A stretch of DNA of 32,116 nucleotides from Bacteroidales bacterium (lineage in GTDB: Bacteria; Bacteroidota; Bacteroidia; Bacteroidales; VadinHA17): positions 1-32,116 of the forward strand of contig JAFGXK010000295.1 of the NCBI GenBank assembly GCA_016936695.1, in the 5' to 3' direction. Below are positions 10,360 through 31,535 of the stretch, in pieces (the first letter of the stretch is position 1; every line of letters starts with the position of its first letter). Under the pieces are notes generated by a model. The model was not told the origin of the DNA and did no database searches. It was given only the letters and a program-made list of their open reading frames with translations. A program made the position numbers and the translations under genes.

Positions 10360-11331
10360 ATGAAATACAGAATATTCGGAAGGACAAACTGGAAGGTCAG
10401 CGAGATTGGCTACGGGATGTGGGGAATGGCAGGCTGGACCGGTTCAGATGATGAAGAATCGCTGGAATCACTTCAGCTTGCTGCCGACCTGGGCTGCACA
10501 TTCTTCGACACTGCCTGGGGATACGGTGCAGGTAAAAGCGAAGGACTGCTCGGAAAACTGGTAAGGGCAAATCCTGATAAAAAGCTTTACACGGCTACCA
10601 AGATGCCGCCAAAGAACTTCAAATGGCCGGCAAGAAGGGAATACACACTCGACGACTGCTTCCCTCCCGACCATATCGAGGAATACGTAAACAGAAGTCT
10701 TAAAAATTCAGGACTTGATTCGTTCGATCTGATGCAGTTTCATACATGGGAAGACAGCTGGCTCGAGGATGACCGTGGAATAAAAAAGATGCTCGAACTA
10801 AAGGAACAGGGCCTGTTTCATGCCATTGGCATCAGCGTTAACCGCTGGGAACCATGGAACGGAGTAATAGCAGTGAGAAGCGGACTGATCGATTCAGTGC
10901 AGGTTATTTACAACATCTTCGATCAGAATCCCAAGGATGAGTTATTCCCTGCCTGCCGTGAGATGAATGTGGCCGTAATTGCCCGTGTTCCCCTCGATGA
11001 AGGCACTCTTACCGGAACACTTACCAAAGATTCAAAGTGGCCCGAAGGCGACTGGCGTAATACCTATTTCGTCCCTGAAAACCTCAATGCCAGTGTTGAC
11101 AGGGCTGAAGCCCTCAGGCCACTGATCCCTGAAGGTATGACCATGCCGGAAATGGCTCTCCGGTTTATTCTTGGCGAACCGACTGTAAGCACTATTATCC
11201 CCGGTATGAGGAAGCCATCGCATGCAAAGGCAAACATAGCTGCAAGCGATGCCGGTCTGCTGGAGCCTGAACTGATGAAGCAGCTCGAAAAACACCGCTG
11301 GGACAGGAGACCGACGAAATGGTCGCAGTAG
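10360..11331 (+). CDS. Aldo/keto reductase
   Basis: RIFGRTNWKVSEIGYGMWGMAG...FFDTAWGYGAGKSEGLLGK...FDLMQFHTWED; 33 bp after the GH10 gene on the same strand. Confidence 0.85.
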   Translation: MKYRIFGRTNWKVSEIGYGMWGMAGWTGSDDEESLESLQLAADLGCTFFDTAWGYGAGKSEGLLGKLVRANPDKKLYTATKMPPKNFKWPARREYTLDDCFPPDHIEEYVNRSLKNSGLDSFDLMQFHTWEDSWLEDDRGIKKMLELKEQGLFHAIGISVNRWEPWNGVIAVRSGLIDSVQVIYNIFDQNPKDELFPACREMNVAVIARVPLDEGTLTGTLTKDSKWPEGDWRNTYFVPENLNASVDRAEALRPLIPEGMTMPEMALRFILGEPTVSTIIPGMRKPSHAKANIAASDAGLLEPELMKQLEKHRWDRRPTKWSQ

Positions 11332-11408: not shown

Positions 11409-13280
11409 CTATTGGGTCTTTGCTACCCTGTCAACAGGAGGGATCTTTCCGGAATGGATTTCATAAAGCCTCGCATTAGTCTCCCTTGCCGCATCAATAA
11501 GCTCCCCGTATGGCCTGTCGGCGACATCGACCATGCCGATATTGTAGTTCTCCCCGTCACCTCTTCCGGTTGAGGGCTGGTCCCACCACTGGAACCAATG
11601 TGTTCCTATCAGATTAGGATGAGCAACAGCATTCTCAACATAATAACGGTATGCAGCTCCGCGTTCCTCCTGGCTGATGGTCTGCCTTAAACCGGGTGAC
11701 AGTCCCCTCTCGGTGGTCCCGAAATGAAATTCTCCAATTATTATTGGAAGACCGGTAAACTCAGCAATCCTGTCAAGCCTCCTGTGATCAGCGAAATAGC
11801 TGTAAATATTAAGGCTGAACACATCAAAGCCCACTGAAGCAGAAGATTTAACAAGATCTTCCGGAGGGTCACCTCCGAAACGCAGTCCGAGGTTCAGGTG
11901 ATTCGGGTCATGCTTCCTTATCGATTTGTTCACAAGGGTGATAAATCTGGTATAAGTGTCATAAACAAAAGCCTTCCGGCGTTCGGGAGTATCGCCTCCC
12001 TTAAGAAATTCCTGAAGAGCCTTCTTCATGGGAGTGTCATCACCTTCCAGGATAACCCTTACCAGCTCCATCTCCCTTCCGGGCCATGGTGGTTCATTTC
12101 CTACAAAATAACCCAGCAGGAAGGGATCGTTCCTGAGAGGCTCACACTGACGGGCGGCAGCAGCATCAACCATAGCCTCGTAATCAGGGGAATAGACATC
12201 AGGCATACCCATGGTTTTTGCATCAAAACCCCACCCCGACAGTGTTGCCACATAAGGCATGCCGACTGCTCGTCCCAGGGTGGGATCCGACCAGTTGGCA
12301 ACTGTATTCAGCCCCCAGTCGTCCATGCGCCTGGCGGTAAACTCCATCCATTTCTGGTAATAATCTGGACCAAACCTCCTGTAGAGATTCCAGGTAAAGA
12401 ATGAAGCCTTCCCAAGCCTGCGGTCGGAGGTTTTAAGTTCTTCGGGAACAAATGATTTGTAAATATATTCCCTTCCTTCTGTGCGGGCAAATGAACCACC
12501 CGCACTTATTCCGGTACTGCCGGCAGAAATGAAATAATGGCCCTGCGGGTCGATGAACCACCATATTCCGTCGATCTTCTCCACCCTGAAAAATCCGGTA
12601 GCTGCGGCCCTGGTTTCAAGATAACCTCCATAATCCGATACATTGAACCGATCGGTCCGGAGAGCCTTGTCTTCCTCATTCCAGGCAGCCTGTAGATCCT
12701 CAATGGCAGCCGCTTTGCCCGGCCATCCGGCGGGGATCCATTGTCCGAATTCATCCACAAGGGGGACCGGGCTGAGAACTGAATCCTCTGGCGTCATTGT
12801 AAGCCGAAGATTTCTTATTTCAAGGACAGGAGAGCCAATGGGCTGGTCCATAAGGAATCCTATTGAATCGACCTGGTTTATGGTTCCGACACTGCCGCTG
12901 AAACCGAGGCCGTAGCCGGGCATCCCCTTTTGTCCTATTGCGGCCATATCGTGCCCTATAACGTTCCTAAACTGAAAGTTGGCAAGGGGAATGGAAGCCC
13001 TTACCCATGCTCCCTGAAACGGGAGAATTCTGAGCCTTCTGACCCCTCCTGTATCGTAAAGACTTACATGGAAACGTTGTGTGGAGGAGGCCCTGAAATC
13101 AATTGTCAGAAAGCCGAACGAGGACCAGTCAGCCGGCAGATCCGGATTAAGATCCTTAACAGCCCATTTCTTCTCAAAGGACTTACCTTCGAAAGTAACT
13201 GTTTTGACATCATCGCTCTTTCTGCAGGAAGTCCCGGCAATCAGAGACAGAAAAATAAGAATAAAAGGAATCTTTTTCAT
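11409..13280 (-). CDS. GH50-like (beta-agarase-like) glycoside hydrolase lipoprotein
   Basis: Lipobox IAGTSC; FWWFIDPQGHYFISAGSTGIS, GYFVGNEPPWPG, LPIIIGEFHFG suggest a beta/alpha-barrel retaining glycosidase; exact family from recognition only. Confidence 0.5.
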   Translation of the reverse strand: MKKIPFILIFLSLIAGTSCRKSDDVKTVTFEGKSFEKKWAVKDLNPDLPADWSSFGFLTIDFRASSTQRFHVSLYDTGGVRRLRILPFQGAWVRASIPLANFQFRNVIGHDMAAIGQKGMPGYGLGFSGSVGTINQVDSIGFLMDQPIGSPVLEIRNLRLTMTPEDSVLSPVPLVDEFGQWIPAGWPGKAAAIEDLQAAWNEEDKALRTDRFNVSDYGGYLETRAAATGFFRVEKIDGIWWFIDPQGHYFISAGSTGISAGGSFARTEGREYIYKSFVPEELKTSDRRLGKASFFTWNLYRRFGPDYYQKWMEFTARRMDDWGLNTVANWSDPTLGRAVGMPYVATLSGWGFDAKTMGMPDVYSPDYEAMVDAAAARQCEPLRNDPFLLGYFVGNEPPWPGREMELVRVILEGDDTPMKKALQEFLKGGDTPERRKAFVYDTYTRFITLVNKSIRKHDPNHLNLGLRFGGDPPEDLVKSSASVGFDVFSLNIYSYFADHRRLDRIAEFTGLPIIIGEFHFGTTERGLSPGLRQTISQEERGAAYRYYVENAVAHPNLIGTHWFQWWDQPSTGRGDGENYNIGMVDVADRPYGELIDAARETNARLYEIHSGKIPPVDRVAKTQ

Positions 13281-13539: not shown

Positions 13540-13590
13540 TTTGCATAACAAAATTATTATTGATTCCTTTGTTATAACAATGTTATAACA
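13540..13590 (+). promoter_or_regulatory. Putative mazE promoter and double palindromic operator
   Basis: Two identical 10-bp perfect palindromes TGTTATAACA at 13570-13579 and 13581-13590 (11-bp phasing), just before the mazE ATG at 13602. TTTG (13540-13543), 20 nt, then TTCCTTTG (13564-13571) resembles Bacteroidota TTTG-N19/21-TAnnTTTG. Confidence 0.6.
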
Positions 13591-13601
13591 TCGTCTAACC
13601 A

Positions 13602-13811
13602 ATGGAAATACAGGTAATTCAGATCGGGAATTCAAAGGGGATCATTCTCAGCAGAGCGATCCTCGAGAGGTATAACATCCAGAACAAGGTAGTGCTTGAG
13701 CTGAGGAAAAACCATATCAACATCACGCCGTTAAAACAGCCGAGGGAAGGCTGGGATAAGTCACTTACCGACATGAATGCAAAGGGAGAGGATATTCTGC
13801 TTTTGAAATAA
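13602..13811 (+). CDS. mazE: MazE/AbrB-fold antitoxin-like protein
   Basis: MEIQVIQIGNSKGIILSRAILERYNIQNKVVLELRKNHINITPL: AbrB/MazE swapped-hairpin pattern; followed by a MazF-like ORF 27 bp downstream. Confidence 0.85.
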   Translation: MEIQVIQIGNSKGIILSRAILERYNIQNKVVLELRKNHINITPLKQPREGWDKSLTDMNAKGEDILLLK

Positions 13812-13838: not shown

Positions 13839-14162
13839 ATGGAAGCAAACCAGTACAGCATAGTGCTTGTAGCTCAGGATTCAGCATCAGGCAACGAACC
13901 ACCCGACAGCATGCAATGCGTGGTCATCTCTCCCGCTGAGATGAACAAGTCTCTGAGAACAGTTACAGTGGCTCCTATTGGAGCTGATACGGGAGATTAC
14001 CCGACCAGGGTGAAAATAAAAGCAGGTAACAAACCGTCCAGAATAATGCTCGATCAGATCATCACTATAGAAAATAAAAGGATCCTGAAAATCACTGGCG
14101 ATCTGGCGCCTGCAGAAGTAAAGAAGGTAAGGTCGGTTCTGAAGGAAATCTTTATCGATTAG
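13839..14162 (+). CDS. MazF/PemK-like protein with substituted catalytic residues
   Basis: YSIVLVAQDSASGNEPPDSMQCVVISPAEMN...TVTVAPIGADTGDYPTRVKI...IMLDQIITIENKRI...ITGDLAPAEVKKV aligns with MazF over its length. Confidence 0.8.
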   Translation: MEANQYSIVLVAQDSASGNEPPDSMQCVVISPAEMNKSLRTVTVAPIGADTGDYPTRVKIKAGNKPSRIMLDQIITIENKRILKITGDLAPAEVKKVRSVLKEIFID

Positions 14163-14224: not shown

Positions 14225-14821
14225 ATGAATGGCATAAAAAGGATATCGGTCTTTTGTGGCTCAAGCCGGGGGAACGATGATATCTTTGAAAAGCAGGCAT
14301 TCAGATTGGGCGAGACACTTGCTTCAAGGAAGATAGGACTTGTTTACGGGGGTACGAAAATCGGTTTGATGAATGCGGTCGCAAACGGCGCTCTGAGCAG
14401 AGGCGGAGAGGTTACGGGAGTCCTGCCGCGGTTCATTAAAGACAAGGGAATAGCACACGACAACCTTACCGAACTTGTCCTGGTTGATACAATGCATGAA
14501 CGAAAGACCAGAATGCACGAGCTGTCCGAGGGGATAATTGCCCTTCCCGGAGGCTTCGGCACTATGGAGGAATTCTTTGAGATACTCACCTGGGGCCAGC
14601 TCGGACTTCACAGAAAACCCGCGGGACTGCTTAACATCAACGGATTCTATGATCCGCTTATGGCTCTTGCATCGACAATGAATGCGTATGGTTTTATCAG
14701 GGAATCGAGCAGGCGGATGCTTCTCATAAGCGACAATATCGACACACTTCTTGATATAATGGAGGATTATACTGCTCCGGCAGTCGACAAATGGTCAGTT
14801 AAAAAGGATTTGCAGGCATGA
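14225..14821 (+). CDS. LOG family protein (TIGR00730; nucleoside 5'-monophosphate phosphoribohydrolase-like)
   Basis: VFCGSSRG, VYGGTKIGLMNAVANGAL, ERKTRMHELSEGIIALPGGFGTMEEFFE. Confidence 0.92.
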   Translation: MNGIKRISVFCGSSRGNDDIFEKQAFRLGETLASRKIGLVYGGTKIGLMNAVANGALSRGGEVTGVLPRFIKDKGIAHDNLTELVLVDTMHERKTRMHELSEGIIALPGGFGTMEEFFEILTWGQLGLHRKPAGLLNINGFYDPLMALASTMNAYGFIRESSRRMLLISDNIDTLLDIMEDYTAPAVDKWSVKKDLQA

Positions 14822-24385: not shown

Positions 24386-25924
24386 TCATATCTTTAATAT
24401 GGTTGAAGAGTACGTTTGAGGATCTGTCAGGACATTTATGGCAGGGGTCAGGAAAAGGTCGCGCACCTGCGGAATAGCGACAAGGCTCAAGATGACACAA
24501 AGAATACTTAGAACAACCATGCTGAAGACCATGGGAAACGGCACTTCCTTAAGGTTTTTTTGCTCTCCGTCCTGTTCCTTGTTATAAAAGGCATACCTCT
24601 GGAATTTAAGGAATGAGGCAAGGGTGATTATGCTTACAATAACGGCAATAAGAGCAAGAAGGTAAAACTTACCCATTACAGCCGCAATTATTATAATCAG
24701 CTTGCTGAAGAAGCCGTTGAAGGGTGGTATTCCGGAAATAGACATAGATGCAATGAATGAGGTCGCGGAGGTTGCCGGCATATACCGTGCAATCCCCCCC
24801 ATCTCCTTCAGATTCCGGGTCCCTGTCCTGTATTCAATGGCTCCGGCGTTAAGGAAAAGAAGACTCTTGAACGCTGCATGATTTATGAGATGAAAAATAC
24901 CTCCGGCAATTGCCAGAGATGCGATTTCAGGGTTTGTCCCCCTGGCAAGGAGTATCATCCCCATCCCGACTGATAGTATTACATAACCCATCTGACTTAT
25001 GCTGTGGTAAGCCAGCAGCCTCTTGATGTCCCACTGTCCGATAGCCAGGAAAACGCCGGTTACCATCGACAGGGCACCAAGGGTGGTAATCAGCACTGCA
25101 ATTTCATTGCTTATGAGGAACATGTTGAAGAAGATCCTTATCAGAACATAGATCCCGACGGCCTTTATCAACACACCCGAAAGCATGGCCGAGATCGGAG
25201 AGGGAGCTGATGAATGAGCATCGGGCAGCCATGCGTGAAATGGTATTACTGCGGCCTTCAGTCCGAATCCGCAGAGAAACAGAAGCTGGATAAGCATATA
25301 ATGCACCTTGTCGGGACTGCTTCCCATAGCAGCTTTGACATCCGCAATGTTGAGGGTTTTTGCCTTCCAGTAAATAAGTCCGATTCCAAACAAGATCAGC
25401 AATGAGGCCAGCCCTCCCAGCACCTGATATTTGAAAGTAGCTTCAAGCTGTTCCCTTTCAACTCCGAATGCGACGAGTGCATAGGAGGAGATCGCAGCAA
25501 TCTCGAGGAAAACAAAGATATTGAAGAGATCGCCGCTCAGAACAACACCGTTCATCCCTGCCACCATCAGACAGAAAAGGGCGTAATAATTACTCTCCGA
25601 TGTGTACCGGCTTATATAGGTGAGTGAATAAACTATTGAAAGAAAACCGACAATGTTGATAATACACAGTAAAAGTGCTGTGAAGTTGTCCATTACCATG
25701 TATATGCCTATTGGAATGCCGTTGACAGGTTCCCATCCCCCGACTTTATAGACTGAAATATCTCCCCTTGCGGTGGTTATTGCAATAAGGCTCATGGCTG
25801 CAAGCAGGAGCAGCACCAGAAGACCGATATACTTGTTGATGTTCTTCAGAAACCTGTCAAGGATCATTGTCAGGAAGGCTCCGGCAAGTGGTACTGCTAC
25901 AAACCAGGGGATCAGCGAATTCAT
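24386..25924 (-). CDS. mrpD: Mrp subunit D/MbhH-like proton-conducting antiporter subunit
   Basis: NIFVFLEIAAISSYALVAFG (TM5 Glu), GFGLKAAVIPFHAWLPDAHSSAPSPISAMLSG, SGIPPFNGFFSK. Confidence 0.9.
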   Translation of the reverse strand: MNSLIPWFVAVPLAGAFLTMILDRFLKNINKYIGLLVLLLLAAMSLIAITTARGDISVYKVGGWEPVNGIPIGIYMVMDNFTALLLCIINIVGFLSIVYSLTYISRYTSESNYYALFCLMVAGMNGVVLSGDLFNIFVFLEIAAISSYALVAFGVEREQLEATFKYQVLGGLASLLILFGIGLIYWKAKTLNIADVKAAMGSSPDKVHYMLIQLLFLCGFGLKAAVIPFHAWLPDAHSSAPSPISAMLSGVLIKAVGIYVLIRIFFNMFLISNEIAVLITTLGALSMVTGVFLAIGQWDIKRLLAYHSISQMGYVILSVGMGMILLARGTNPEIASLAIAGGIFHLINHAAFKSLLFLNAGAIEYRTGTRNLKEMGGIARYMPATSATSFIASMSISGIPPFNGFFSKLIIIIAAVMGKFYLLALIAVIVSIITLASFLKFQRYAFYNKEQDGEQKNLKEVPFPMVFSMVVLSILCVILSLVAIPQVRDLFLTPAINVLTDPQTYSSTILKI

Positions 25925-25926
25925 TT

Positions 25927-26265
25927 TCAGCCTCTTAGATTATTAATTTCTCTGATATCAAGCGTCTTGTATTTCCTGTAAATCCTTATTATCACAGACA
26001 TCAGCATTGCGGTGGTGGCAAGACCAATCACAATGGCAGTAAGGACCATTGCCTGCGGCAGGGGATCGACATAGATAGCGTCAGGGCTGGCCGGATCAAC
26101 TATCGGTGCTTCACCATGATGGACATATCCTATCAATGCCAGAAAAAGGAAAACGCTGAACTCCATAACCGATAGTGAAATGACTATCTTGACAAGGTTT
26201 CTCCTGGTAATGACTCCATAAAGTCCGACCAGGAAAAGAATAAAGCAAAGAAGGTAAACTGTCAT
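25927..26265 (-). CDS. mrpC: Mrp-type antiporter subunit C (NuoK-like)
   Basis: LYGVITRRNLVKIVISLSVMEFSVFLFL...PLPQAMVLTAIVIGLATTAMLM. Confidence 0.9.
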   Translation of the reverse strand: MTVYLLCFILFLVGLYGVITRRNLVKIVISLSVMEFSVFLFLALIGYVHHGEAPIVDPASPDAIYVDPLPQAMVLTAIVIGLATTAMLMSVIIRIYRKYKTLDIREINNLRG

Positions 26266-26699
26266 TTTGTTATTTCTTCCTTAAATATTACCAGTGCCAG
26301 AAAAATTGTCAGTATCGAAGCCGCAACTTCAATCCCTACGCTTATATTGAAGAGAGGTATCACACCTGCGCTTATCAGTTCTCCGACTTTACCTGCCGGC
26401 AGCCAGTTATTGAAAAAGATCCTGGCTCCAAGAAGCATCCCTGCCAGGGCGATAATAAGAACAAAGAGTATCGCCAGATTCTCCGTTATAGTCGTGCCTG
26501 TTTCTTCCCTGGTCAGGTTTATGAACTCACTTCCATTTGCCAGGATAAGAAGGATGAATGAACCTGCAATTATAACACCTCCTGCAAAGCCCCCTCCCGG
26601 GGAAAGATGTCCATGGATTATCACATATATACCGTAAAGAAATACTATGCCAGCTATAAGCTGGGTCGTCTTCTTTACTATGATTGTCATTCCTTTCAT
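26262..26699 (-). CDS. Mrp subunit B-like
   Basis: YGIYVIIHGHLSPGGGFAGGVIIAGSFILLI: MnhB signature; 4-bp overlap with mrpC. Confidence 0.9.
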   Translation of the reverse strand: MKGMTIIVKKTTQLIAGIVFLYGIYVIIHGHLSPGGGFAGGVIIAGSFILLILANGSEFINLTREETGTTITENLAILFVLIIALAGMLLGARIFFNNWLPAGKVGELISAGVIPLFNISVGIEVAASILTIFLALVIFKEEITK

Positions 26700-26750
26700 T
26701 GGAACTCAGTTTTTCTCCGTTTTACTATCAGTTTTCTTCGGTCTTAAAAG

Positions 26751-26973
26751 AACCCACCCCTACCCCTCCCGGGAGGGGATCCTTATTGTTCCTGCCCTAT
26801 GCTCTGTGCCCTGTGCTTTTCTTTCTCACTCTCACTCTGTTTTAACCCATCCCTACCCCTCCCGGGAGGGGATCCGTATTGTTCCTGCCCTGTGCTCTGT
26901 GCCCTGTGCTTTTCTTTCTCGCTCTCACTCTCACTCTGTTTTAACCCACCCCTACTCCTCCCTGGAGAGGATT
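26751..26973. repeat. Three-copy direct repeat carrying the palindrome CCCCTCCCGGGAGGGG
   Basis: AACCCAYCCCTACCCCTCCCGGGAGGGGATCC at 26751 and 26844, degenerate copy at 26943; near-identical intervening CCTGCCCTRTGCTCTGTGCCCTGTGCTTTTCTTTCTC... blocks; periods 93 and 99 bp, differing by a 6-bp CTCACT unit. Confidence 0.9.
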
Positions 26974-27515
26974 CGTCCGGGCTTATCTTCCTTCTTTCCC
27001 TTTAATCTCAGTATCGTCAGCACTCCCAGAACCGCAGTGATCAGGACAGTAGCCTCGCCGAGAGTATCGAAACCCCTGAAGTCAAATATTACTCCGGTTA
27101 CGAGATTTGCACTGCCGGTCTTCTCCGCGGCGCCGGAAATATAATACTCAGACATCCTGAGCGATCCTTCACCGAAAGCATCGAGCGATCTTGTTGCAAG
27201 GCTCAGGAAATAAAAGATCACGCCAACTATCAGTATTGCTGTTGCCATTGTCACATATCCCTGCCTGTCAGATTTAGTGTATGGTTCCTCCCGTGTACTG
27301 TCGATTACCACTGCCACCATTAAGACCAGGGAAATTGTTTCCACGACAATCTGGACTATTGCCAGGTCGGGAGCTTTCAGCAGCAGGAAGCAGATAACAA
27401 GGCCGTATCCCACAATACCGCAGGCAATTACTGCCGAAAGCAGGTCTTTTGCATGAATTGCAAAGATGGCCCCGAGGATCATAAAGACAAGAATTACTGA
27501 AACAGCTGCTTCCAT
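26952..27515 (-). CDS. MrpA C-terminal-like / MbhD-MbhE-like membrane subunit (DUF4040 type)
   Basis: [49 protein letters not shown]...[24 protein letters not shown]. Confidence 0.88.
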
Positions 27516-27528
27516 AGGGTAATCTTAA

Positions 27529-29382
27529 TTATATCATAATCAATAACATAATGATTAATCCGGCAAATATCCAGATAATATAGCCCGACAGAACTCCGGT
27601 GTGAGCCAGACTCAACCGGTGACTGGACCATAACACTATTCCCTTTGACAGGTCATAGATGTCAAACCATTTCTCCCTGGCTCTGTTGTAAACAGCTGAC
27701 AGGAATCTGAATTCAGTAAATGTCTTGTAAAATTCAGGTGTCGGATAACCCGCAAGATCATGGAACTTTTCTCCGCCGATAAAACTGTCTGAAGTCCTGA
27801 ATTTTTTAATGTCAGATGCGAGATAGATAATTATCCCGGCCACAATTGACAACAGAACCATTACCGAAACCATCCCGGAATTCCAGTAACCTGAAAACTC
27901 GAACTCACCGGTTACCGGCATGAATAGCTTCGGTACTACCTGGTTTGTCGCAAAGACACCCAGTAAAATACAGAAAAGTGCAAGCAGGGCAACCGGGATC
28001 CACATAGCCCAGGGCACCTCCTTTACATCCGCCAGCTCTGCCCTGCGCCTGCTGAGGAAAACGCCGCCGATAAACTTGATGAAACTGGCCAGTGTAAGTG
28101 CGGATCCGAATACTGCTAGTCCAAGCCATATCACCCATAGTTTGTTCGGTATGCCTGGCTCTCCTCCAAAATCAATAATCGCCTGGTAAATCATCCACTT
28201 GGATGCAAATCCGTTCAGGGGAGGGATCCCCGATATCGACATTGCGAAGATGAGAGCGGCAATAAATGTTACGGGCATAGCCTTTGACAATCCCCCCAGG
28301 TCGTCTATTTCACTAAGGCCTGTACGGTGTTCTATTGAACCGGCAGACAGGAACAGACCGCTCTTATAGATTGCATGGTTGACCATATGGAACAATCCTG
28401 CGGCGATGCCAATCACTGATCCCAGACTCAGTCCGAGTATCATGTATCCGACCTGAGATACGGCATGATATCCGAGCAGCTTTTTATAGTTATGCTGAAT
28501 CAGGGCCATCATCACCGCTGTTATGATGGTTGTTACGGCGATCAGGAGTAAGATTAGAGTCATCCATTCGCCAGTGATAAACATTCCGTTGATGATCCTG
28601 GCCAGGAAGTATATACCAAGGAGCTTATCGAGTGAGGCCGGCAGGAATGCAGAAGATGAAGCCGGAGCATCCTTTGCATAATCCGGCACCCAGGTATGGA
28701 AGGGGAAGGCTCCTGCCTTTGTGAAACTTCCCGCAAGAAGAGCCAGGAAGGCGGTAACGGTAAGAGCATTCCCGGTTGAAAGGGAAATTTCGCTCATATT
28801 AAGGGTTCCCGTGATCTTCCAGACGATTGCAATCCCGATAATCATTATGCTGTCGGAGGCTCCTATCATAATAAGAGTTTTCTTGGCTGTTGCCGAGCTC
28901 TCTTCATCACTGCCCTGGATAAGCTTGTAAAGGGTTATACCCAGTATTCCCCAGAATGCAAGGAAAAGAAGAAGATTATCGGCCAGCACGGCACCATAGG
29001 AACAACCCATTGTAACAAGGATCCAGGAATAGTAGTTCCTTATCCTCTTCCCCTTCATGTATACTATTGAATACAGAAGTATCAAAATGGAGAAGAGACT
29101 GATGAACATAAGAACCAGCCTGCTCAGGTTATCAATTCTGAGCGTAAGATACCTGCCAATGTTCCAGAGCTCAGGCATAAACATCTGCGCATCTGATGTA
29201 TAAATTCCGGCTGTCAGTACTCCTGCAGTCACAGCTGCAGCGAGAGCAAGGATCCCTTTGGCAAGGGAAGCCTTATCCGGAATAATGAACAGGATGATCC
29301 CGGCAATAATCGTTATCAGAATTGCGGATTCAAGGTTCGCCATCACGGCATTATTGGATATGAGGTCTATAAATTCCTTCAT
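27529..29382 (-). CDS. Second proton-conducting antiporter-like subunit (MrpD/NuoL family) with C-terminal MbhI-like extension
   Basis: FTKAGAFPFHTWVPDYAKDAPASSSAFLPASLDKLLGIYFLARI, SGIPPLNGFASKW; C-terminal FYKTFTEFRFLSAVYNRAREKWFDIYDLSKGI...LAHTGVLSGYIIWIFAG. Confidence 0.85.
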   Translation of the reverse strand: MKEFIDLISNNAVMANLESAILITIIAGIILFIIPDKASLAKGILALAAAVTAGVLTAGIYTSDAQMFMPELWNIGRYLTLRIDNLSRLVLMFISLFSILILLYSIVYMKGKRIRNYYSWILVTMGCSYGAVLADNLLLFLAFWGILGITLYKLIQGSDEESSATAKKTLIMIGASDSIMIIGIAIVWKITGTLNMSEISLSTGNALTVTAFLALLAGSFTKAGAFPFHTWVPDYAKDAPASSSAFLPASLDKLLGIYFLARIINGMFITGEWMTLILLLIAVTTIITAVMMALIQHNYKKLLGYHAVSQVGYMILGLSLGSVIGIAAGLFHMVNHAIYKSGLFLSAGSIEHRTGLSEIDDLGGLSKAMPVTFIAALIFAMSISGIPPLNGFASKWMIYQAIIDFGGEPGIPNKLWVIWLGLAVFGSALTLASFIKFIGGVFLSRRRAELADVKEVPWAMWIPVALLALFCILLGVFATNQVVPKLFMPVTGEFEFSGYWNSGMVSVMVLLSIVAGIIIYLASDIKKFRTSDSFIGGEKFHDLAGYPTPEFYKTFTEFRFLSAVYNRAREKWFDIYDLSKGIVLWSSHRLSLAHTGVLSGYIIWIFAGLIIMLLIMI

Positions 29383-29386
29383 TTCG

Positions 29387-30589
29387 CTATCCTTGTGGTT
29401 TTCTGAGCTGTTTGGTAAGGCTGACCGACATTTCTATCAATTCTTTTGCATTGTGGATTTTTAAACCCGTTTCCGTATCGTAGGCTGCAGCAAGCCTTTC
29501 CGTGCAGCAGTAGCATGGATCAACTGCAGCAAGTGTTATGGTTGCATCGGAGATAGTCTGTCCGATACATGATTTTTTGAACGTGGCGATGTTCACATAG
29601 CTCGGAGCCCTTATTTTATGCCTTAACGGAGAATTGGAACCATCTGAGAATACACAATGGAACACCTCTCCCCTTGGAGCTTCGGCTCTGCCTGTACCAA
29701 TTCCTTCGGGTATCTCCTTAACCTTTACGGAAATGTCACCTTCCTTTTCATTTTTGATCTTTTCAAGACATTGCTCAATGATCGAGACTGATTCAAACAT
29801 TTCCAGAAGTCTCACTTCCGTTTTGGCAAATACATCACCGGTATCTGCAGTAATCACCTTCCAGTTCACGAGCGGATACGCGGCGTACGGATCATCCCTC
29901 CTGATGTCGATTGCCAGCCCGGAGGCTCTTGCCGTCGGACCGACGGCGCCATAATCGATCACATCCTGTTTTGTAAGGACTCCCACTCCCTTGGTTCTTA
30001 AGTGTATAACCGGGTCATCCATTACTGCACCTGTAAGAAGTGAAAGCTTCTTTTTTAAATCCGACATTGCCTTAAGAATCACCGGTATCTTTGATTCTTC
30101 AATATCACGTCTTACCCCTCCGACCTTGAACATCGCATAGCTGTTCCTGTTACCCGTGATCATCTCGAACAGATCGAGGACAGGCTCACGGTATTTCCAT
30201 GCCCACATGAACACAGTGTTGTAGCCCAGGAAGTGTCCTGCCAGTCCAAGCCAGAGCAGATGACTGTGAATACGTTCAAGTTCGCCAATTATACTTCTTA
30301 TGTATTTGGTCCTGTCTGTTATATCAATCCTGCATATTTCCTCAACTGCATTGGCAAAGGCAAAGGGATGGGATGTCGAACAGATCCCGCAGATCCTTTC
30401 AACCAGAAAAAATACCTGGTCGTAGGTCTTCGATTCAGCAAGTTTTTCAATACCCCGGTGGTTGTAGCCGGTTTCCCATTTTATATCCTTAACAATTTCA
30501 CCGTCACAATAAAGCTTGAAAAGCTCAGGCTCTTCCTGGAGCGGGTGATACGGACCAATGGGTATGAAAAATTTCTTGCTCATGATCAT
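29387..30589 (-). CDS. Group-4 [NiFe] hydrogenase large subunit (MbhL/EchE/HycE-like)
   Basis: GYNHRGIEKL, VERICGICSTSHPFAFANAVE (C67xxC70), VDPCYCCTER (C359xxC362): both Ni-Fe ligand motifs intact. Confidence 0.93.
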   Translation of the reverse strand: MIMSKKFFIPIGPYHPLQEEPELFKLYCDGEIVKDIKWETGYNHRGIEKLAESKTYDQVFFLVERICGICSTSHPFAFANAVEEICRIDITDRTKYIRSIIGELERIHSHLLWLGLAGHFLGYNTVFMWAWKYREPVLDLFEMITGNRNSYAMFKVGGVRRDIEESKIPVILKAMSDLKKKLSLLTGAVMDDPVIHLRTKGVGVLTKQDVIDYGAVGPTARASGLAIDIRRDDPYAAYPLVNWKVITADTGDVFAKTEVRLLEMFESVSIIEQCLEKIKNEKEGDISVKVKEIPEGIGTGRAEAPRGEVFHCVFSDGSNSPLRHKIRAPSYVNIATFKKSCIGQTISDATITLAAVDPCYCCTERLAAAYDTETGLKIHNAKELIEMSVSLTKQLRKPQG

Positions 30590-30591
30590 TT

Positions 30592-31041
30592 TTATTTGAA
30601 CTCTTTTCTATAAGGATAAACTCCCTCTGCCCAGTTGCCTTCGGAGATTAGTTTCTCCTGGTTTGGATGGTTAAGGAAATCGATCCCGAAAAGCTCATGC
30701 ATCTCCCTTTCTATCCAGTTGGAGGCGTTGAACATATTTGAAAGTGATTCTATTTGCGGTTTGTCTGATTTGAGAATAACGTGGATGTTAAGCACAAGTC
30801 CGATCTCATCCTTGCTGAAATGATAGTGAATCTCGAATCCTTTCCTGGTATGGATTGCGGAAGCTATTATAAACCTGAGCCCGGCCTCCCTGTAAAGATG
30901 ATCTGCAACCTTCAGGAGGGCATCGGGTTCTATCATGACCGACCATCTTGTGTCGCTCCTCTTCTCGGTTTCAAGAACATCACTCCCGAGCTTAACCTTT
31001 ATTTCTTCTATGATTGCTTCACTGTTCATCATGTCCGTCAT
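30592..31041 (-). CDS. Hydrogenase/NADH dehydrogenase subunit C-like (MbhK/NuoC)
   Basis: NWIEREMHELFGIDFLNHPNQEKLISEGNWAEGVYPYRKEF. Start moved from 31182 to 31041 (MTDMMNSEAI), because the upstream part of the listed ORF is repeat-encoded. Confidence 0.88.
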   Translation of the reverse strand: MTDMMNSEAIIEEIKVKLGSDVLETEKRSDTRWSVMIEPDALLKVADHLYREAGLRFIIASAIHTRKGFEIHYHFSKDEIGLVLNIHVILKSDKPQIESLSNMFNASNWIEREMHELFGIDFLNHPNQEKLISEGNWAEGVYPYRKEFK

Positions 31042-31073
31042 TTCATTTTCCTTATACTTCAAACCTTTTGCCC

Positions 31074-31115
31074 TTGCCCTTCGCCCCTTGCCCTTCGCCC
31101 CTTGCCCTTCGCCCT
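31074..31115. repeat. 14-bp tandem repeat TTGCCCTTCGCCCC x3 at the NuoB/NuoC gene junction
   Basis: 31074-31087, 31088-31101, 31102-31115 (last copy one mismatch at end). Confidence 0.9.
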
Positions 31116-31121
31116 GCGCCT

Positions 31122-31535
31122 TCATTTGCTCTTCACCAGCGCCATAATGCCTGCTATTATTGCTTCCGGCTTGGGAGGGCATCCCGGTATGTATGCATCC
31201 ACAGGAATTATTTTATCGACAGGCCCTGCGAAAGTATTTCCCTCGGCGAAAATGCCGCCGGTACAACCACAAGCGCCGATGGCAACAACCAGTATCGGCT
31301 TCGAAGCCTGGTGATAGATCTCCAGCAGCCGCTCCTTGTCACGTCTGTTAATTGATCCGTTTACCAGGAGCACATCGGCATGCCTGACGCTGCCGACCAG
31401 CAGAATACCGAACCTTTCAAGATCATACCGTGGTGTGAGGCAGTCGAGTATTTCAATATCGCAATTGTTGCATGAAGCTCCTCCGAAATGGAAGACCCAT
31501 AATGATTTTTTGAAGCAAAAACTTTTAAAGCCCAC
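31122..31535 (-). CDS. Hydrogenase small subunit (MbhJ/NuoB-like)
   Basis: KKSLWVFHFGGASCNNCDIEILDCLTPRYDLERFGI, IGACGCTGGIF, PGCPPKPEAI (Fe-S cysteines). GTG start at 31535 proposed; the ATG ORF (31703) overlaps the upstream gene by about 157 bp. Confidence 0.8.
   Translation of the reverse strand: MGFKSFCFKKSLWVFHFGGASCNNCDIEILDCLTPRYDLERFGILLVGSVRHADVLLVNGSINRRDKERLLEIYHQASKPILVVAIGACGCTGGIFAEGNTFAGPVDKIIPVDAYIPGCPPKPEAIIAGIMALVKSK

Follow-up and report, generated by a model that had tools for sequence, protein, structure and literature searches.

A MazF homologue without its catalytic residues, and genome-wide copies of the mazE operator, in a clade of Bacteroidales

A toxin that has lost its activity is usually taken as the sign of a decaying module. 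In the toxin-antitoxin (TA) system Kis-Kid, octamers in which toxin dimers alternate with antitoxin dimers bind two operator regions via two Kis dimers (PMC4803016). DNA-binding proteins may also be put to structural use, as is the case of SlmA, structurally a transcription factor of the TetR type (PMC3116907). SymE, a nucleoid-associated protein of E. coli, has a MazE-like DNA-binding domain, which shows that such a domain can structure the nucleoid (PMC11894785). As to the sites recognized by such proteins, in ParB and Noc a few protein changes switch the DNA site read chromosome-wide (PMC7383237).

The window, meaning the whole stretch of 32,116 nucleotides analyzed in this work, hosts at 13839..14162, on the plus strand, a gene here called mazF', encoding a 107-aa protein (MEANQYSIVL...LKEIFID). 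The product is matched by PF02452 (PemK_toxin) over profile positions 2-109 of 109, with E=2.4e-18 and 66.7 bits, the Pfam cut-off being 23.1 bits. By full-length sequence and fold mazF' is a member of the MazF/PemK family. The catalytic Arg25 and Thr48 of the family are replaced by Met25 (codon ATG, 13911..13913, plus strand), followed by Gln26 for Pro26, and by Gly48 (codon GGA, 13980..13982, plus strand). Homologues of full length, taken from the genus and the family of this bacterium, align to mazF' ungapped, and read KKTRPCVVISPDEMN...VIIAPMTTSSKNYPTRV at these columns. Changes in mazF' are R25->M, P26->Q, T48->G, T49->A, W68->R and R75->I, the homologues carrying Thr followed by Thr or Ser opposite Gly48-Ala49. 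Since the alignment is ungapped over the full length, residue columns are unambiguous, and a misalignment hiding Arg or Thr is ruled out. R25 plus T48 or S48 are kept by all homologues tabulated across the order, except the window clade and L077, L079 and L103; in three partial matches R25 was not scorable. An earlier note on this DNA had described a full-length MazF homologue carrying Met25 and Gly48, and both statements are borne out, the former by the Pfam match and the predicted structure, the latter by the two codons and the alignment. An alternative Arg or Thr in the active site, which the note had named as contrary evidence, was looked for at the pocket positions of the alignment, and is absent.

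MazF of B. cereus carrying both R25A and T48A has almost no RNase activity left (PMC7354611). This precedent, and the lack of R25 and T48, lead to the strong prediction that the window MazF' is RNase-dead. The structure prediction proposed at the outset gave a MazF fold: the AlphaFold model, obtained from a shallow alignment (pLDDT 76), matched MazF structures in Foldseek with TM scores of 0.74-0.85, 4mdx and 4me7 being among the best matches. The nearest structures are those of S. aureus, B. subtilis and M. tuberculosis MazF, MazEF complexes included. Literature searches retrieved no inactive MazF homologues or domesticated toxins of matching kind.

The gene upstream, mazE' (13602..13811, plus strand), encodes a 69-aa antitoxin with a MazE-like N-terminus (IGNSKGI), and ends 27 bp before mazF'; the tail motif RxGW...M...L is kept. 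No Pfam match was found for mazE', and homology to the MazE of canonical operons was assessed by tblastn. The locus has the make-up of a type II TA operon, with an upstream antitoxin gene encoding a DNA-binding N-terminus and a toxin-binding tail, and a palindromic operator-like site at 13571-13589, whereby autoregulation is predicted. The site (13571..13589, GTTATAACAATGTTATAAC) has the structure GTTATAAC-AAT-GTTATAAC, that is two 8-bp palindromes 11 bp apart, and is located 12 bp upstream of the mazE ATG, a distance which is the same in all four species discussed below, with either type of site. About 80 homologous mazE operons share this layout, with a pair of GT....AC palindromes which are in most cases GTAATTAC-like, and whose usual distance is 11 bp. 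On the sequence comparison, such a double-palindrome operator before mazE is ancestral to the family. Canonical operators (as an example, L009 and L016) contain TAACTTTG, which fits the -7 element of Bacteroidetes promoters, TAnnTTTG. The AAT spacer of the window clade removes the -7 element, and the promoter must therefore have moved.

The DNA-reading positions predicted in mazE' are Gln7 and Ile15; in homologues these residues are mostly K/R/Q and Arg, respectively. Residues 7 and 15 are presumably the DNA contacts of MazE, as assumed from the E. coli protein, and from the co-variation seen here. When residue 15 is I or L, 17 of 18 arms have T as their outer base; when it is R, 5 of 160 do (Fisher 2e-18, phylogeny ignored). 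Ile15 is found in the window clade, and in a separate, distant subfamily (L030, L031, L072, L128, L129). The MazE of G048, one of the four species, has Arg15, and its own operator is of the GTAATTAC type. The half-site type follows MazE residue 15, and this provides indirect evidence that MazE may read these half-sites.

Four species of one genus, with R25 replaced in their MazF, form one clade in the tree (support 100/99). Residues 25/48 are M/G in the window, I/G in G034 (L001, L004), V/C in G052 (L005) and S/T in G048 (L006). Thr48 is kept in the latter, and the loss of both catalytic residues is thus confined to three species. P26Q, D50, R68 and E78 are fixed, and R75 is lost, in all four; E20 is missing in L004. 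Tree and residues show a single loss of R25, in the ancestor of the four species, and a later loss of T48. A sequencing error as the source of M25/G48 is ruled out, as the change is shared by three further species. Under neutral decay dN/dS would be about 1. For MazF' it is 0.149 (95% CI 0.077-0.285) in the comparison of the window with G034, and 0.126 (0.039-0.238) with G052; for MazE' it is 0.111. Pairs of intact MazF mostly have lower values, about 0.03-0.06. Constraint on MazF' is relaxed, by a factor of 2-4 with respect to intact MazF, but is clearly present. Such purifying selection denotes that MazF' is not decaying, and dN/dS, synteny and the intact length in four species rule out a pseudogene. 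The view that simple decay is not at work was already held in the earlier note, which suggested searching for homologues sharing the replacements and estimating dN/dS; it agrees with the three sister species found, with the two dN/dS values and the four-species synteny, and with a MazE partner (13602-13811) which proved intact, as had been supposed, and conserved.

A 323-aa AKR-like gene (10360..11331, plus strand; assigned by sequence) precedes mazEF' in all four species of the clade, and LOG and peptidase-like genes lie downstream in three of the four. In the window, the former is separated from mazEF' by a 623-aa gene with no Pfam match (11409-13280, minus strand), which is missing from the same interval in G052 and G048, and is found only as fragments in G034 (L001 2731-3645), where mazEF' is intact. 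The lysine-decarboxylase/LOG-family gene (14225..14821, plus strand) downstream of mazF' is syntenic in G034 and G048. No AKR/LOG synteny was observed at the intact mazEF copies of other species, where checked (L036-L038). A recent import by plasmid or phage finds no support, the locus being syntenic in all four species. Elsewhere in the window (24386-31182, minus strand) lies a cluster encoding complex-I/Mrp-type antiporter and 49-kDa/NiFe-hydrogenase-like subunits, that is a membrane-bound hydrogenase or oxidoreductase operon.

The operator is not confined to the mazE promoter region. Exact GTTATAAC-N3-GTTATAAC sequences number 30 in this genome (G000), 29 in G034, 40 in G052 and 0 in G048. 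In turn, GTAATTAC-N3-GTAATTAC is found 40 times in G048, and once or never in the others. About 0.001 double sites per genome are expected by chance, and the reversed pattern used as control is absent from all four genomes, which are fragmented drafts of 70-343 contigs. Among 62 genomes of the genus, further GTTATAAC-N3-GTTATAAC sites were detected only in G064 (19) and G050 (1). The canonical operator pattern occurs exactly once in each of 12 genomes of the genus hosting intact MazF, and never in the clade; genomes with intact MazF have one operator, or none matching the pattern. The counts show that, G064 apart, this clade is the only one whose genomes have about 30-40 exact copies of the putative operator type. 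In this genome, 27 sites correspond to the exact 19-mer, in either orientation of the A-W-T centre, and near matches are almost absent. Exceptions are C213:5462, half old and half new (GTAATTACAATGTTATAAC), and C164:5052, which is of the old type. Lone half-sites near the site loci are at chance level, and the unit is therefore the double site.

In G064, which has the 19 exact GTTATAAC-N3-GTTATAAC sites, neither MazE nor MazF was matched; the assembly is 83% complete, and the AKR gene is missing too. The mazEF' locus may be unassembled, or the sites may have outlived the protein. The single site of G050 (L274) is on a contig encoding a protein 93% identical to that of G052, while the AKR gene of G050 is 81% identical to that of the window, and the contig is read as stray or transferred. 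Isolated dead MazFs, otherwise canonical, were encountered elsewhere: L077 (G142) carries R25S, L079 (G417) R25W, L103 (G449) T48A. Disarming was probably independent and recent in these, and their genomes have one operator copy each, which rules out that loss of catalysis in MazF always leads to genome-wide binding.

Sites were placed at 24 loci in this genome. The orthologous locus has a site for 20 of the 24 in G034, for 20 in G052, and for at least 10 in G048, a lower bound, since the comparison covers 32 G048 loci. Between G000 and G052 the 19-mers are 0.97 identical and their flanks 0.50, the centre being the sole free base. Of the 11 pairs shared by G000 and G048, 10 show the switch in each of the four arms; the exception, L273/L212, is of the old type in both genomes. 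Intragenic sites (7 of 24 loci) are always found in a single open frame, and override codons: when the orthologous site exists in G048, the residues it encodes differ accordingly, as in a GH97 protein which reads RYNNVITQ in G000 and RNYNVITY in G048. Another 7 of 24 loci are at gene 3' ends, often with the TAA of the site as stop codon, and in about 10 of 24 a gene start is found within ~215 bp (classification by inspection). Two double sites in tandem make up four-half-site arrays at L175, L179, L271 and L182; for three of these, a gene start follows 16-33 bp downstream, which suggests that arrays are stronger sites at promoters. Inverted repeats at gene ends recall intrinsic terminators, a role ruled out for these sites, which are exact, AT-rich, devoid of T-runs, and found also within genes and in four-half-site arrays.

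These data make it probable that MazE'-MazF' is a TA module domesticated as an RNase-dead DNA-binding complex, with anchor sites throughout the genome. According to this model, MazE' dimers would bind both GTTATAAC half-sites of each site. Binding of MazE' to GTTATAACAWTGTTATAAC would be specific, and strengthened by MazF', and the G048 proteins would prefer GTAATTAC. The MazF' dimer would join two MazE' dimers on the same face of DNA, and perhaps also distant sites, in the way Kid joins Kis, and half-sites spaced 11 bp, both on one face of the DNA, would suit a complex of this kind. As an active RNase would be dangerous in a constitutive complex at dozens of sites, catalysis would have been lost before constitutive use of the complex, and the fold, along with the MazE-binding surface, kept. 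The output would be either chromosome organization, as for MatP and SlmA, or broad regulation. The former is slightly favored, at chances not far below even, over the latter, which is possible but somewhat less so, because the sites are exact, non-degenerate and often outside promoters. In its full form the proposal is tentative: MazE' would mark 25-40 exact sites, dead MazF' would bridge them in a TA-derived chromosome organizer, and the specificities of protein and sites would have switched together in speciation, from GTAATTAC to GTTATAAC, intragenic sites included. Three readings had been offered beforehand, and the evidence supports them in part. The non-RNase regulator is the best supported, in a stronger form than originally worded, as the mazE operator is dispersed genome-wide only in this clade; the neutralized toxin is correct as far as it goes, and for a different active site no positive evidence was obtained.

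Alternatively, MazE'-MazF' could be a global transcription regulator, repressing or activating at promoter sites, while intragenic and 3'-end sites would act as roadblocks or be tolerated. The possibility has to be taken seriously, though the balance is on the whole against it. The mazE site and three four-half-site arrays are 12-33 bp upstream of gene starts, the ~10 loci with a nearby gene start would fit, and MqsA is a precedent of an antitoxin regulating other genes (PMC4803016). Yet the intragenic and 3'-end loci, 7 of 24 each, are hardly those of a regulator, typical regulons are not made of almost non-degenerate sites, and genes beside the sites are functionally unrelated (DHFR, MutS2, GcpE, mnmA-like, mfd-like, GH97). 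That the dispersed sites are repeats or mobile elements rather than binding sites, as many near-identical 19-mers might intimate, is scarcely credible: flanks are random and carry almost no information, positions are orthologous across species with coding adjustment, and at 10 of the 11 loci shared by G000 and G048 the half-sites have changed together.

The remaining alternatives concern the proteins. MazF' might be just a neutralized toxin within a self-regulating module, the dispersed sites being owned by another protein that came to bind the mazE operator. G064, which has sites and no detected mazEF', and the isolated dead MazFs with one operator copy, are in line with this scenario. The scenario is unlikely, as it has to face a two-palindrome mazE operator ancestral to the family, a half-site type tracking MazE residue 15, and multi-copy sites restricted to the dead-MazF clade and G064. 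Even less likely is that MazF' is still an enzyme, its active site having been re-built with Gln26, Asp50, Arg68 and Glu78, common to all four species, in the place of R25 and T48. Positions 25 (M/I/V/S) and 48 (G/G/C/T) vary freely, R75 is lost in the clade and E20 in L004, and the site pattern needs no catalysis.

If MazE'-MazF' is a domesticated complex, a conserved dead toxin accompanied by genome-wide sites matching its operator would mark a testable route from a selfish TA module to a cellular DNA-binding system, in which the toxin is given a structural role. The switch between close species would be a natural case of concerted rewiring of a DNA-binding protein and dozens of sites, some of them in coding sequence, and is relevant to the way in which multi-site systems change specificity.

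Tens of exact dispersed sites, many of them away from promoters, are what characterizes chromosome organizers, and the sites described here conform to this picture. SlmA with its SBS, MatP with matS, and SeqA similarly have tens of exact non-degenerate chromosomal sites, many not at promoters. In contrast to these unrelated proteins, MazE'-MazF' is a TA-derived, two-protein system. SymE shares with MazE' a DNA-binding fold of the MazE type, recruited in SymE to nucleoid structuring; unlike MazE'-MazF', it consists of one protein, with no MazF partner, and the accessible part of the SymE report describes no comparable set of exact sites (PMC11894785). MqsA, as proposed here for MazE', acts beyond its own operon, on other genes (PMC4803016), but has few targets, and its toxin, MqsR, is active and works as a derepressor. 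ParB and Noc differ from MazE' in fold, and the two specificities belong to two related proteins rather than to orthologues of related species. The closest likeness in layout is with MazEF and PemIK (Kis-Kid), for operon order, MazF fold, MazE-like partner, and a palindromic operator before the antitoxin gene; in contrast to them, mazF' lacks the catalytic Arg and Thr, and the operator, instead of occurring once, is found 30-40 times per genome.
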